Shown here in pieces: positions 53,719-58,913 of a stretch of 64,000 nucleotides of DNA (position 1 is the stretch's first letter; each line of letters begins with the position of its first letter). The stretch spans positions 62,001 to 126,000 of the forward strand of contig DASYYH010000006.1 in NCBI GenBank assembly GCA_035934015.1. Direction: 5' to 3'. This stretch comes from Candidatus Acidiferrales bacterium (GTDB lineage Bacteria; Acidobacteriota; Terriglobia; Acidiferrales; UBA7541). Under the pieces are notes generated by a model. The model saw only the letters and a program-made list of their open reading frames with translations, searched no databases and was not told the origin of the DNA. The translations under genes and the position numbers were made by a program.

Positions 53719-54984
53719 TCAATTGCGATAAACGATTTTTCCGCCGACAATTGTTGCCACAGGTCCGCCGCGGAATTTGCGTCCGTCAAATGGCGTGTTG
53801 CGCGAAAGACCGGGAGATTCGACGGTGTGATAGGTCCAGTCGCGTTCAGTCGAGAAAATCGTAATGTCGGCGGGAGCGCCTGTATGCAGTTTGCTTTCTT
53901 TGCCCAGAATTTTTGCTGGACCAATTGTGAATAGTTCCACCATGCGCATGAGCGAAATGCGATTGGCGTGGACGAGCTGCTCGAGCGCTAGGGCGATGGC
54001 TGTCTCAAACCCGGTGATGCCAAAGGGAGCGCGATCGAATTCGACATCCTTGCTCGCGGGATGATGTGGCGCGTGGTCCGTCGCGATTGCGTCGACAGTT
54101 CCGTCGGCTAGGCCCTCCAATAGCGCGTCGCGATCTTCGCGCGATGCGAGCGGCGGATTCATTTTGAAATGCGAGTCATAGCGTACGTCTTCATCAATGA
54201 GCGTGAAATGATGCGGCGTCACTTCGCACGTGACACTGAGGCCGCGCCGCTTGGCATTGCGTACGTGTTCCAGCGAGCCGCGCGCAGACATGTGCGCGAT
54301 ATGCAGGCGCGCGCCGGTCAGTGAGGCCACTTCAACATCCCGGCCAACGCAAATTGATTCGGCCGCAGCCGGCATGCCTTTCAAGCCCAGACGAATCGAA
54401 TGCGGCCCTTCTCGCATTACACCACCCGCGGCAAGCGATGAATCTTCGCAATGATCAATCACCGGCAAATTCAGCGGTCGGCAATAATCCATCACCTGCC
54501 GGAGAAGGCGCGCACTGGCGATGGGCTTGCCGTCGTCGGTCACGGCGACCGCGCCCGCTTGTTGCATGGCAGCGATTTCGGAGAGCTGCTCGCCTTTGCT
54601 TTCCTTGGAGGCCGCTCCGATGGGCCAGACGTGAACGGGTGAGATGGCGGCTGCGCGCTCGAGAATCGCGCGAGTGACCGACGCATTGTCATTCACGGGG
54701 TGCGTATTTGGCATGGGACATACGGCAGTGAACCCTCCGCGTGCTGCGGATTGCGTACCCGATTGAATCGTCTCCGAAATTTCTCCGCCTGGTTCGCGCA
54801 GATGGCAGTGCATATCGATGAAGCCCGGCGCGACAATGCAATTGGCTGCATCGAGCACGACCGCATCGCCTGCGGAAATCCCCGCGCCGATCTTTGCGAT
54901 CTTCCCTTTGTCGATGAGCACGTCCGCGTGGGAATCCGTTTTCGATGTCGGATCAATCACGCGGCCATTCTTAATCAGCAGCAT
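53719..54984 (-). CDS. pyrC: dihydroorotase
   Basis: A 421-residue zinc amidohydrolase that closes carbamoyl-aspartate to dihydroorotate. Zinc motif GFIDMHCHLREPG, further ligands in VIDHCED and LHIAHMSARG, and the catalytic aspartate in AIATDHAPHH are all present, so it is a catalytic type I enzyme and not the inactive PyrC' partner seen in some species. The start at ATG 54984 (MLLIKNGRVIDP) lies 14 bases inside the pyrB 3' end. Last gene of the pyrR-pyrB-pyrC unit. Confidence 0.94.
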   Translation of the reverse strand: MLLIKNGRVIDPTSKTDSHADVLIDKGKIAKIGAGISAGDAVVLDAANCIVAPGFIDMHCHLREPGGEISETIQSGTQSAARGGFTAVCPMPNTHPVNDNASVTRAILERAAAISPVHVWPIGAASKESKGEQLSEIAAMQQAGAVAVTDDGKPIASARLLRQVMDYCRPLNLPVIDHCEDSSLAAGGVMREGPHSIRLGLKGMPAAAESICVGRDVEVASLTGARLHIAHMSARGSLEHVRNAKRRGLSVTCEVTPHHFTLIDEDVRYDSHFKMNPPLASREDRDALLEGLADGTVDAIATDHAPHHPASKDVEFDRAPFGITGFETAIALALEQLVHANRISLMRMVELFTIGPAKILGKESKLHTGAPADITIFSTERDWTYHTVESPGLSRNTPFDGRKFRGGPVATIVGGKIVYRN

Positions 54985-55939
54985 GCGAGGAATCCTTTGC
55001 GTGATCTTGAGGGTCGGCGGAGCCGGCGACAAGCTCGAAGAGAATCGCCATGCGAATCGCCAACCCGTTGGTGACTTGTTCCAGAATGCAAGATTGCGGG
55101 CTGTCGGCAACCGCCGGATCGATTTCCAGCCCGCGAATCATCGGGCCCGGATGCAGAACAATGGCATTCCTGCGCGCCAGTTTCACTCGTGAAGGTGTCA
55201 ATTGATATTGCAGGATGTAGTCTTCTGCGGAAATCGAAGGCTCGTGCATACGCTCCTGCTGAATCCGTAGCGCCATGATGGCGTCCGCGCCGTCGAGCGC
55301 TTCTTCGATGCACGGGACGCAGCGAATATTCGGCGCAAGCGACGCAAGTTCTCGCGGAAGCCACATCGCGGGACCGCATAGCGTCATGTGCGCCCCAAAC
55401 TTTGAAAGCAGATGAATATTGGAACGCGCCACGCGGCTGTGAAGGATGTCGCCAATCATCGTTATGCGGATTCCGTCGAGATGGCCCCGGCGATCGCGGA
55501 TCGTCAGGGCATCGAGTAGTGCCTGCGTCGGATGCTCGTGTGTGCCGTCGCCTGCGTTGATGACGGGAACATCCACGCGCCGCGAAACGAACTCGGCGGC
55601 TCCGGAGGAGCTATGGCGGATCACAATCGCATCCGGCCTCATGGCTTCCAGCGTCCGTACGGTATCGCTGAGCGATTCGCCTTTCTTTACGCTGGAGGCT
55701 TCCGCCTGAAGATTCATTTGGTCTGCGCCCAATCGTGATGCAGCCGTGGCAAAGCTGATTCGTGTGCGCGTGGAGTTCTCGAAAAACGTGAGCGCAATCG
55801 TCTTGCCGCGGAGTGTCGCGAGCTTTTTTAATGGATAGCGTTGGAATTCCTGGAAGGGTTTTGCCTGGTCAAGAAGAAATACGATTTGTTCGCGGCTGAG
55901 CGGTTCTATGGCTAGCAGATGACGGAAGCGGTGCGACAC
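54971..55939 (-). CDS. pyrB: aspartate carbamoyltransferase catalytic chain
   Basis: A 322-residue transcarbamoylase that joins carbamoyl phosphate to aspartate. The carbamoyl-phosphate motif FENSTRTR, the HPTQALLD motif and HPGPMIRG near the C-terminus are clear. The start is GTG 55939, 30 bases after pyrR. The end overlaps pyrC by 14 bases. No regulatory chain gene (pyrI) is near, as usual for this operon type. Confidence 0.95.
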   Translation of the reverse strand: MSHRFRHLLAIEPLSREQIVFLLDQAKPFQEFQRYPLKKLATLRGKTIALTFFENSTRTRISFATAASRLGADQMNLQAEASSVKKGESLSDTVRTLEAMRPDAIVIRHSSSGAAEFVSRRVDVPVINAGDGTHEHPTQALLDALTIRDRRGHLDGIRITMIGDILHSRVARSNIHLLSKFGAHMTLCGPAMWLPRELASLAPNIRCVPCIEEALDGADAIMALRIQQERMHEPSISAEDYILQYQLTPSRVKLARRNAIVLHPGPMIRGLEIDPAVADSPQSCILEQVTNGLAIRMAILFELVAGSADPQDHAKDSSHAAD

Positions 55940-55969
55940 AATCTCCCTCGATTGCAGATTTTCACAGGT

Positions 55970-56518
55970 TCAGTCAACACGATCCATGACCACAACGCGT
56001 TCTTCCTTGTCAATTTCAGTCAAACGCACTTCAATAATCTCGGTATCCGACGTTTCCACAGCTCGGCCCACGAAAGTTGCTTCGATAGGCAGCTCGCGAT
56101 GGCCGCGATCGATCAAAACGCATAGTTGAATGCGTCTCGGGCGGCCCAAATCGAACAGTCCATTCATCGCCGCGCGGACGGTCCTACCAGTATAGAGAAC
56201 ATCGTCGACGAGCAACAGATCACGATCGTCGACGGGAAACGCAATCTCGCTGGATTGCACAACGGGCTGCGGCGCGACAGTCGAAAGATCATCGCGGTAA
56301 AGGGTGATGTCCAGCGTGCCGACAGGGACTCCAGCCTTCGACGATGCACGAATGGATTTGGCGAGGCGTTCGGCCAGCGGGATGCCACGACGGCGCACGC
56401 CAATGAGTGCCAGATCCTTCGCACCGCCTGTCTTCTCCACGATCTCATGTGCCAAGCGGTCGAGCGTGCGTCGAATCTCGTCCGCGGACATGAGCTGGCG
56501 TTTTTCGATGACGCGCAT
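55970..56518 (-). CDS. pyrR: pyrimidine operon regulator / uracil phosphoribosyltransferase PyrR
   Basis: A 182-residue type I phosphoribosyltransferase-fold protein with the PRPP motif LLLVDDVLYTGRTVRAAM. In Bacillus it binds UMP and pyr leader RNA to promote attenuation; it also has weak uracil phosphoribosyltransferase activity. It heads pyrB and pyrC. I could not identify a PyrR-binding anti-antiterminator in the 148 bases upstream. It is divergent from pyrD, so one region may control both directions. Confidence 0.93.
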   Translation of the reverse strand: MRVIEKRQLMSADEIRRTLDRLAHEIVEKTGGAKDLALIGVRRRGIPLAERLAKSIRASSKAGVPVGTLDITLYRDDLSTVAPQPVVQSSEIAFPVDDRDLLLVDDVLYTGRTVRAAMNGLFDLGRPRRIQLCVLIDRGHRELPIEATFVGRAVETSDTEIIEVRLTEIDKEERVVVMDRVD

Positions 56519-56666
56519 GGGCGCATTATCGTAACACAGAGAGGGAAAAGCGCGAGGGGCGAGCCTCTGCTAGCCATTCAGGAAGAACTCGGCAATTGCC
56601 GCAGCTTTTTGGAATCTCGACTTTAGACATGGCAGACGCTGCTCTGCGTGTGTTAAACTCCTTCGC

Positions 56667-57608
56667 GTGAGCTCGCCCGCAAGCGCCCGGCGGCCCACGG
56701 ACGTCGACCTCAGCGTCCGGATAGGTACCCTTCTTCTCTCCAATCCTGTAATTGCCGCCAGCGGGACTTTCGGATATGGCATCGAATTTTCTCATCTTGT
56801 TGATTTGAATTCTCTCGGCGGAATTGTTGTCAAGGGTCTGTCGGCGCAGCCTTTGACCGGAGCACCCGTGCCGCGGCTTTGTGAAACCACGGGCGGCATG
56901 CTCAATGCCGTTGGGTTGCAGAATATTGGTGTGCATGCCTTCGTCGCCGAGAAGCTGCCGGTGCTCAGGAAATATCGAACAGCCATCATCGCAAATGTGT
57001 TCGGCTACACGATTGATGAGTATGTGGAAGTAATCCATGTGCTGGAAGACGCCGAAGGCGTGGCCGGCTACGAATTAAACATCTCCTGCCCAAATGTGGA
57101 TCAGGGCGGCTCGGAATTTGGAGTCGATCCCTTGCTCACGTCCCAGGTTGTAACTGCAGCACGGCGGGCGGCGGTGAAACGACCGCTATGGGTGAAGCTA
57201 GCCCCGAATGCAGACGTAAAGGCGACCGCACGCGCCGCTGAGGCGGCTGGAGCGGACGCGCTAACAGTAGCAAACACATACCCAGCCATGGCTCTTGACC
57301 CTGCGACAGGTTCGTCAAAGTTGGGTCGTTTGACGGGTGGGCTCTCTGGTCCAGCCATAAAACCTCTCACGGTACGGCTTGTTTACGACGTAAGTCGTAC
57401 CGTTGGGATTCCTGTCATCGGCCTTGGAGGGATAGAAAGCTTAGACGACGTCCTTGAGTATTTTCGCGCCGGAGCCACCGCTATTCAGATCGGGACTGCT
57501 CACTTTGCCGATCCCAGAGCGTCTGAACGCGTGGTGGAGGAACTTTGGCACCACTGTGAGAGTCTAACTATCAATAATATCAACCAGTTAAGGGAAGTCT
57601 CTAAGTGA
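56667..57608 (+). CDS. pyrD: dihydroorotate dehydrogenase, class 1B catalytic subunit
   Basis: A 313-residue FMN enzyme oxidising dihydroorotate to orotate. The active-site cysteine is in YELNISCPNVDQGG, as in class 1 enzymes; NPVIAASGTFGYG and IPVIGLGGIES are FMN motifs. Class 1B enzymes work with PyrK, an FAD/[2Fe-2S] subunit, which is not in the window. Start is GTG 56667 without a strong ribosome site, close to a -10-like TAAACT, so the leader may be very short. Codon use toward the end becomes AT-richer, like the following rlpA. Confidence 0.92.
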   Translation: MSSPASARRPTDVDLSVRIGTLLLSNPVIAASGTFGYGIEFSHLVDLNSLGGIVVKGLSAQPLTGAPVPRLCETTGGMLNAVGLQNIGVHAFVAEKLPVLRKYRTAIIANVFGYTIDEYVEVIHVLEDAEGVAGYELNISCPNVDQGGSEFGVDPLLTSQVVTAARRAAVKRPLWVKLAPNADVKATARAAEAAGADALTVANTYPAMALDPATGSSKLGRLTGGLSGPAIKPLTVRLVYDVSRTVGIPVIGLGGIESLDDVLEYFRAGATAIQIGTAHFADPRASERVVEELWHHCESLTINNINQLREVSK

Positions 57609-57696: not shown

Positions 57697-58203
57697 ATGA
57701 AAACAAGACTAAAACAACTCGGAAAAGTGCTTCTAGGCCTTGTCTTGCCATTCCTTCTCGTCACAGTCGTCAAGGCTCCGGCCATTGGCGAGAGTGCTGC
57801 GCCTGCCTCGATTAGTCAAGGCGAGCTGCTGGCCTCGGGTCTAGCCACCCCGGACTCCAAGCTGGCCCCTAGGCCACTCAAGACCTTCGTTTGCCTGTCC
57901 AGTTGGTACGGCCAAAATTTCGACGGCCAGGTTACCGCGGATGGCGAGATTTATGATATGTATGCCCAGACGGCAGCCCACCCCAGTCTGCCGATGGGAT
58001 CTGTCGTCAGGGTCGTCAATCTTCGCACGCGGAAAAGCGCGATTGTCCGAATCAATGACCGGGGTCCATACGTTCCGGGACGCGACCTTGATGTTTCGTA
58101 CCAGGTAGCCAAGGAACTTGGCTTTGCCCACCGCGGCACCGCCCGCGTGAGGGTCGAGCTGCTCAAGGTGCCGAAATCAAAGAACGAACCGCCAGCCAAC
58201 TGA
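57697..58203 (+). CDS. rlpA: septal-ring lytic transglycosylase RlpA family protein
   Basis: A 168-residue exported protein with a double-psi beta-barrel domain. The N-terminus is a signal peptide (about 1-32). The RlpA signature is SSWYGQNFDGQVTADGEIYD, with TAAHPSLPMGSVVRV and the active-site-like INDRGPYVPGRDLDVS. RlpA cleaves naked glycan strands at the septum. The lipoprotein cysteine and the C-terminal SPOR domain of the E. coli protein are absent. The stop overlaps the apparent CTG start of pyrF. Its place between pyrD and pyrF is unusual. Confidence 0.88.
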   Translation: MKTRLKQLGKVLLGLVLPFLLVTVVKAPAIGESAAPASISQGELLASGLATPDSKLAPRPLKTFVCLSSWYGQNFDGQVTADGEIYDMYAQTAAHPSLPMGSVVRVVNLRTRKSAIVRINDRGPYVPGRDLDVSYQVAKELGFAHRGTARVRVELLKVPKSKNEPPAN

Positions 58204-58913
58204 TTGTCGCACTAGACTTTCCCCATCTTTCGGAAGCCATCCATCTTGTCCGCCAGCTCAAGGGGCGTATAGGACTGGCCAAAATAGGCAGCCAGCTATT
58301 TACGGCTGAGGGCCCGCGAGCCGTCGAGCGGCTCGCGTCGCTAGTGCCGGGCATTTTCCTGGATTTAAAGTTCTGTGACATACCAAACACCGTCGCAGGA
58401 GCAGTGAGGTCGGCTGCGGGCCTTCCCAAGGTCAAAATGCTGACTCTGCATACGACGGGCGGCTACGAAATGATGCGGACCGCCAAAGATGCTCTGAAGA
58501 ACATCAAAAATCCCCCGAAATTGCTCGGAGTCACCATCCTAACGAGCCTGGATGGAGCAGAACTTAGACGGATAGGACTCGCAGGGCCCGTGGAAGACCG
58601 TGTGGTCGCACTTGCCCAACTTGCGAAATCAGCCGGCTTGGACGGGATAGTAGCTTCTGCTCGGGAAACCTCCCTTGTGCGTGCGGCAGTGGGAAGAGAC
58701 ATAAAAGTCGTAGTGCCGGGCATACGCCCTGCTATTGCCGAAGGCGAAGCAAAGGCCGACGATCAAGCTCGCATCGCAACGCCCGCTGGTGCTATAAGGG
58801 CGGGCGCGGATTACCTCGTCGTTGGTCGTCCAATTACGGCCGCTCCGGATCCTCGCAAAGCTGCGGATGCCATACTTCAGGAAATGAAGGCCTCTCGAGT
58901 ATCCGTCTCCTAG
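58200..58913 (+). CDS. pyrF: orotidine 5'-phosphate decarboxylase (CTG start inferred)
   Basis: A 237-residue TIM-barrel enzyme making UMP from OMP. The N-terminal strand IVALDFPHLSEA begins right at the rlpA stop; the catalytic DxKxxD is in FLDLKFCDIPNT, and PGIRP and YLVVGRPI are the phosphate-binding motifs. No ATG, GTG or TTG is in frame before GTG 58344, which would cut off the first beta-strand and helix and so is unlikely. A CTG at 58200 overlaps the rlpA TGA as CTGA, the geometry of ATGA coupling, and is taken as the start. Confidence 0.85.
   Translation: MIVALDFPHLSEAIHLVRQLKGRIGLAKIGSQLFTAEGPRAVERLASLVPGIFLDLKFCDIPNTVAGAVRSAAGLPKVKMLTLHTTGGYEMMRTAKDALKNIKNPPKLLGVTILTSLDGAELRRIGLAGPVEDRVVALAQLAKSAGLDGIVASARETSLVRAAVGRDIKVVVPGIRPAIAEGEAKADDQARIATPAGAIRAGADYLVVGRPITAAPDPRKAADAILQEMKASRVSVS

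Follow-up and report, generated by a model that had tools for sequence, protein, structure and literature searches.

Where does translation of pyrF, the gene of orotidine-5'-phosphate decarboxylase, start when its reading frame contains no ATG, GTG or TTG codon in front of the catalytic residues? The question was raised by a locus in the window, the whole stretch of 64,000 nucleotides (nt) that was analysed. The window genome is that of a poorly known bacterium from soil; its nearest named relatives are Acidobacteriota, Candidatus Acidiferrales, and the assembly containing the window consists of 28 contigs and is 98.6% complete.

The pyrF frame and its missing canonical start

The open pyrF frame spans positions 58092 to 58913 on the plus strand and, as the original prediction had stated, the first ATG, GTG or TTG codon in it is GTG 58344. 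The beginning of the frame overlaps rlpA (57697..58203, plus strand, starting with ATG 57697), whose product belongs to the septal ring lytic transglycosylase RlpA family (TIGR00413, 125.8 bits, cut-off 82.15). It had also been noted correctly that the codon CTG 58200-58202 overlaps the rlpA stop codon TGA (58201-58203) as CTGA. In the region 54971-57608 just upstream, pyrD (Pfam DHO_dh) was found on the plus strand, and ORFs resembling pyrR and pyrB by sequence lie on the minus strand further upstream of pyrD. Judged by these assignments, pyrF belongs to a pyrimidine gene cluster with rlpA intervening, in which the pyrR and pyrB members are putative.

When translated from the start codon proposed below, pyrF (58176..58913, plus strand) would encode a polypeptide of 245 amino acids, (M)KERTASQLIVALDF..., and would overlap rlpA by 28 nt. 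This product matched the NF001273 profile over nearly its full length (positions 3-231 of 233) with 258.5 bits (equivalog cut-off 193 bits). It also matched TIGR01740 (176 bits) and, among solved structures, 3tr2 in the PDB (7.5e-55). The segments LIVALD, the K of KIG, and DLKFCDIP, which we take to be the catalytic Asp/Lys motifs of the PyrF family, are all present in the translation and were aligned to solved PyrF chains. LIVALD starts at CTG 58200. Since a protein made from GTG 58344 would lack LIVALD and AKIGSQLF, and the OMPdecase domain begins upstream of this codon, a start at 58344 or downstream is not credible for PyrF. Gene finders admitting only ATG, GTG and TTG would cut the protein past the catalytic Asp and Lys, and a shortened PyrF is the likely outcome of standard annotation. 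With such truncated calls these genomes could be scored as having no working PyrF.

Loci of pyrF were gathered from the whole family (89 genomes in 13 genera) and from some other members of the class. The comparison in relatives indicated that the absent start is not a sequencing slip: in all five genomes of the window genus (g1) the frame has no ATG, GTG or TTG upstream of LIVALD and the other conserved N-terminal residues. Of the 44 family loci in which pyrF runs into rlpA or directly adjoins it, 27 have no such codon before LIVALD. In the window, nine ORFs that start late or are neighbours were inspected, six of them with a domain match, and only in pyrF does a Pfam domain begin before the first NTG; a genome-wide habit of missing starts was thus not seen among these ORFs.

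A conserved Shine-Dalgarno-ATC unit inside rlpA

The near-cognate codon ATC 58176-58178 (plus strand), which the original prediction had overlooked, is located 24 nt upstream of CTG 58200, and the rlpA stop codon lies 25 nt downstream of it. It is preceded by the Shine-Dalgarno (SD) sequence AAGGTG (58165..58170, plus strand), formed by the rlpA codons AAG GTG (K V), with 7 nt between AAGG and the ATC; by sequence, the window pyrF thus has a near-cognate codon at the proper spacing from a conserved SD. The calculated SD energy for ATC 58176 is -6.2 kcal/mol, where the anti-SD was assumed to be the universal 16S tail, the genome's own 16S gene being absent from the assembly. The SD (AGGTG) is of moderate strength, since 7% of random window positions score equally well. 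The same arrangement, AAGG, 7 nt and ATC, is present in 5/5 g1 loci, all without NTG, and ACG stands at equal SD spacing in 18 species of the sister genera. ATC codons also arise by chance, and the comparison within the genus covers five members. In one of these (L004) a stop codon interrupts the pyrF frame just three codons ahead of the ATC, and the near-cognate codons left upstream of the catalytic Asp are, besides the adjacent internal Leu codon, ATC, CTG and ATT only. The PyrF residues before LIVALD are similar to the corresponding ones in relatives whose start is canonical (for example, IESDASRKLIVALD versus MPTDARERLIVALD).

Because of the overlap, the third positions of rlpA codons can serve as a neutral yardstick. 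Changes were counted along a PyrF tree in the 23 species that make up g1 and its sister genera g3 (16 species) and g8 (2 species). Neither the G of the SD nor the A that opens ATC/ACG showed any change, while the 40 upstream rlpA third positions changed 7.8 times on average and at least twice (at least four times in the columns of fourfold type). In g3 and g8 none of these 40 positions was invariant, and in a 46-codon stretch of rlpA the only two invariant third positions were the SD G and the A beginning the ACG. The SD G was retained in the 23 species although the RlpA residue varies between E, K and R, and the first A of ATC/ACG although the residue varies between K, S, T, P and A (in g3 and g8 S, T, P or A). 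Such a pattern, with variable amino acids and two fixed bases, is characteristic of an initiation site and not of the RlpA protein. Since TC in ATC and CG in ACG are also needed for Ser and Arg of RlpA, only the first base provides a clean test. In g1 the third bases of both SD codons (AAG GTG) are invariant. The window and its closest relative (G003) are identical over the ATC and the 40 nt that follow, but differ at many third positions of rlpA upstream of the ATC. In g3 and g8 the stretch from the ACG to LIVALD varies by indels (-18/-21/-24); none was observed between the SD and the ACG.

The SD-ATC unit is thus conserved in a frame that has no canonical alternative. On this comparative evidence, which strongly supports a conserved SD-AUC start, PyrF is very probably translated from AUC 58176. 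We infer that initiation does take place at this codon and that it is weak. The 30S subunit would be placed by the AAGGTG sequence embedded in the last rlpA codons, and the AUC would be read by the ordinary fMet-tRNA with a third-base mismatch to yield (f)M-KERTAS-QLIVALD... of 245 amino acids. Ribosomes translating rlpA would read through the pyrF start and stop 25 nt later, so that both proteins would come from one overlapping unit. If the AUC start is true, the N-terminal peptide of PyrF is ERTASQLIVALDFPH... (or KERTAS...), which contains residues upstream of CTG 58200.

The original prediction was right in placing a non-canonical pyrF start inside the rlpA overlap but chose a different codon, CTG 58200, from which PyrF would be made by termination-reinitiation at the CTGA overlap. 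Selection marks the SD, the 7-nt spacer and ATC/ACG instead. CTGA is present in the window and in four of the five genus members, but comparison of the codon in close relatives, proposed as a check, showed that CTG has not been kept as a usable start. Four g1 species have CTG as the Leu codon at this position and one (L006) has TTA; the g3 species have CTA (11), TTA (1) or CTG (4), and those of g8 have ATA. CTA, TTA and ATA are implausible starts. No SD precedes CTG 58200 (+0.1 kcal/mol, a value equalled or bettered by 76% of random window positions), and relatives with a canonical start all have the codon inside the gene, as Leu or Ile, several codons past the start; reinitiation on it was not borne out. 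The CTGA overlap results from the coding of Leu-Ile, since CTG AT. in the pyrF frame contains a TGA in that of rlpA, and it is found also in g2, g11 and most of g12, where pyrF has an undisputed upstream TTG start. A start at CTG 58200 would moreover remove the residues before LIVALD and leave the conservation of the SD-ATC unit unexplained. CTG starts may exist in the family, as two loci (L025 and L042) have a genuine CTGA start-stop overlap at -21, 8 codons further upstream. In the window CTG 58200 is most likely the internal Leu of LIVALD, and we regard a start there as improbable. Much the same evidence speaks against ATT 58203 (ATC in relatives), which would form a TGATT/TAATC overlap with the rlpA stop. 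Nearly all family members have ATH as this Ile codon, and in many of them TGAT or TAAT overlaps the rlpA stop, but the codon is internal in every relative with a canonical start, has no SD (+0.1 kcal/mol), and would give M-VALD with essentially nothing before strand 1; this makes it a still more doubtful candidate.

Two further explanations, both very improbable, dispense with a separate functional start. With pyrF overlapping rlpA in the -1 frame, PyrF could arise from rlpA by -1 frameshifting or other recoding, but inspection of the overlap revealed no slippery heptamer, such a product would bear the RlpA N-terminus and be exported, and in relatives the homologous place is occupied by ordinary starts. 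Alternatively, the missing start could be a sign of decay, pyrF being untranslated in the window genome after a group-II PyrF took over. A second PyrF of another subfamily (L002/L138; TIGR02127, 253 bits) is indeed encoded at G000:C8:110327-111154, and the window genome is the only one among the 89 family genomes with a TIGR02127 match. The pyrF frame, the catalytic motifs and the SD-ATC unit are nevertheless intact and almost unchanged relative to G003, which has no second PyrF, and the same ATC start occurs in four other genomes without one. No second PyrF was found in G001, which is 99% complete. As the AUC-start pyrF is the only copy found in the other genomes, it must presumably be translated there; in the window genome its expression is not forced. 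The argument of the original prediction from an essential enzyme is accordingly weaker for the window genome and holds for the other members, where a single PyrF was found. The second gene, restricted to this genome, was possibly acquired horizontally or comes from a contaminating contig.

Start codons across the family and the phase of the overlap

Loci without an NTG start were found in six genera: 5/5 in g1, 16/16 in g3, 2/2 in g8, 2/2 in g7, 1/2 in g13 and 1/5 in g4. In g3 and g8 the apparent pyrF start is ACG, 7 nt after AGG, in 18/18 species (L008, L009, L013, L015, L022, L029, L033-L041, L043-L045). ACG mismatches the initiator anticodon at the middle base; by sequence comparison it is a likely start in these sister genera, less secure than AUC. 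In g2, g6, g10, g11 and g12 a TTG start is located seven codons before the residue preceding LIVALD, and the large genus g5 has ATG, GTG or TTG at a greater distance upstream, in many cases past a gap that follows rlpA. The apparent start in g7 (L014, L017) is ATA, in an ATAA overlap with the rlpA stop. In L025 and L042 it appears to be the CTG of the CTGA overlap at -21, and the start of these two loci could be either this CTG or an ACG at -27. Taken together, it seems fairly probable that the orthologous pyrF in the overlap uses ATG, GTG, TTG, CTG, ATA, ATC and ACG across sister genera, with ACG conserved in 18 species.

The pyrF frame is shifted by one relative to rlpA, and an NTG start in the overlap gives TGN in the rlpA frame, i.e. 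Cys, Trp or stop. This constraint can be read directly from the sequences. At the position concerned rlpA has Trp (TGG) with a TTG start in g2, g6, g10, g11 and g12, the stop codon TGA in g4 and g13 (as GTGA, CTGA, TTGA or TGATG) and TAA in g7 (as ATAA), Arg (CGN) with an ACG start in g3 and g8, and Ser (TCN) with an ATC start in g1. The lineages would thus have met the constraint in different ways, by Trp with TTG, by an early stop with GTG, CTG, ATG or ATA, by Arg with ACG, and by Ser with ATC. We infer that the frame constraint, not selection for a low level of PyrF, drove the change of the start codon. If true, the series of start codons is a natural experiment on the limits of start-codon drift and on the control of a metabolic enzyme by IF3.

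Initiation in the family and known non-NTG starts

The window genome was found to have one initiator tRNA of the ordinary kind (C1-A72, GGG/CCC in the anticodon stem, anticodon CAU). No second initiator with another anticodon was seen, the detailed inspection covering the three CAU tRNAs, and an altered initiator tRNA was rejected as an explanation. Loss of IF3 was likewise rejected, as infC is present in 81/89 family genomes and in 50/50 of those of high quality. The infC genes of the family, including those of four g1 genomes, have the arrangement GGAGGTG-N5-ATC with the ATC 7 nt after GGAGG, and in several genomes, two of them of g1, the infC frame is stop-bounded without any NTG. The same SD-ATC spacing in infC of the same organisms indicates that AUC is an accepted start there; on these sequences it is very likely an accepted start codon in the family, as in Streptomyces infC (PMC5472188). 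At the infC loci (L169-L174 and others, e.g. L142, L147 and L171) the ATC start follows GGAGGTG, in many cases in a stop-bounded frame lacking ATG, GTG and TTG, and the annotation of IF3 in the family is probably also wrong at the start. By analogy with infC AUU and AUC in other bacteria, the AUC start of pyrF may be restrained by IF3.

Few non-NTG starts of bacteria have been characterised experimentally, namely AUU or AUC in infC and GTC in Streptomyces sigR; IF3 restrains both (PMC5472188). Start-codon switches traced in closely related prokaryotes include only one or two to CUG or AUU per class (PMC5622118). In vitro, IF3 accepts nothing but Watson-Crick pairing at codon positions 1 and 2 (PMC10158994), which makes the claim of ACG more surprising and that of AUC easier. 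No precedent for a bacterial ACG start or for a CTG start of pyrF was found in the open literature.

Compared with PyrF of other organisms (TIGR01740/NF001273), the protein of the window is alike in being a full-length equivalog match with the catalytic motifs, and its gene differs in the start codon alone. The short start-stop overlaps with termination-reinitiation coupling described in PMC10666635 correspond to pyrF of g4, g13 and g7 (GTGA, CTGA, ATAA). The window genus differs from that type, since rlpA ends 25 nt past the start and the overlap is 28 nt, not 4 nt. The closest precedents for the pyrF start are infC (AUU/AUC) and Streptomyces sigR (GUC). With infC, which starts with AUU in E. 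coli and with AUC in Streptomyces (PMC5472188) and apparently in the present family, pyrF shares the AUC, the SD 7 nt upstream, the lack of NTG in stop-bounded frames and the conservation across genera. However, infC is autoregulated by its own product, whereas pyrF codes for a metabolic enzyme within the 3' end of another gene, and its start codon, unlike that of infC, differs between genera. The IF3-repressed sigR (PMC5472188) is alike in having a conserved non-NTG start on a gene other than infC, with an SD and missed by annotation; its start has been shown experimentally and is regulatory, whereas the proposed start of pyrF lies within a gene overlap and is deduced from comparison. To these systems pyrF would add, on comparative evidence, a metabolic enzyme, usually in sole copy, with AUC or ACG as the start in at least 23 species, and it offers a structural reason, the frame of the overlap, together with a gradation of start codons for a single gene.
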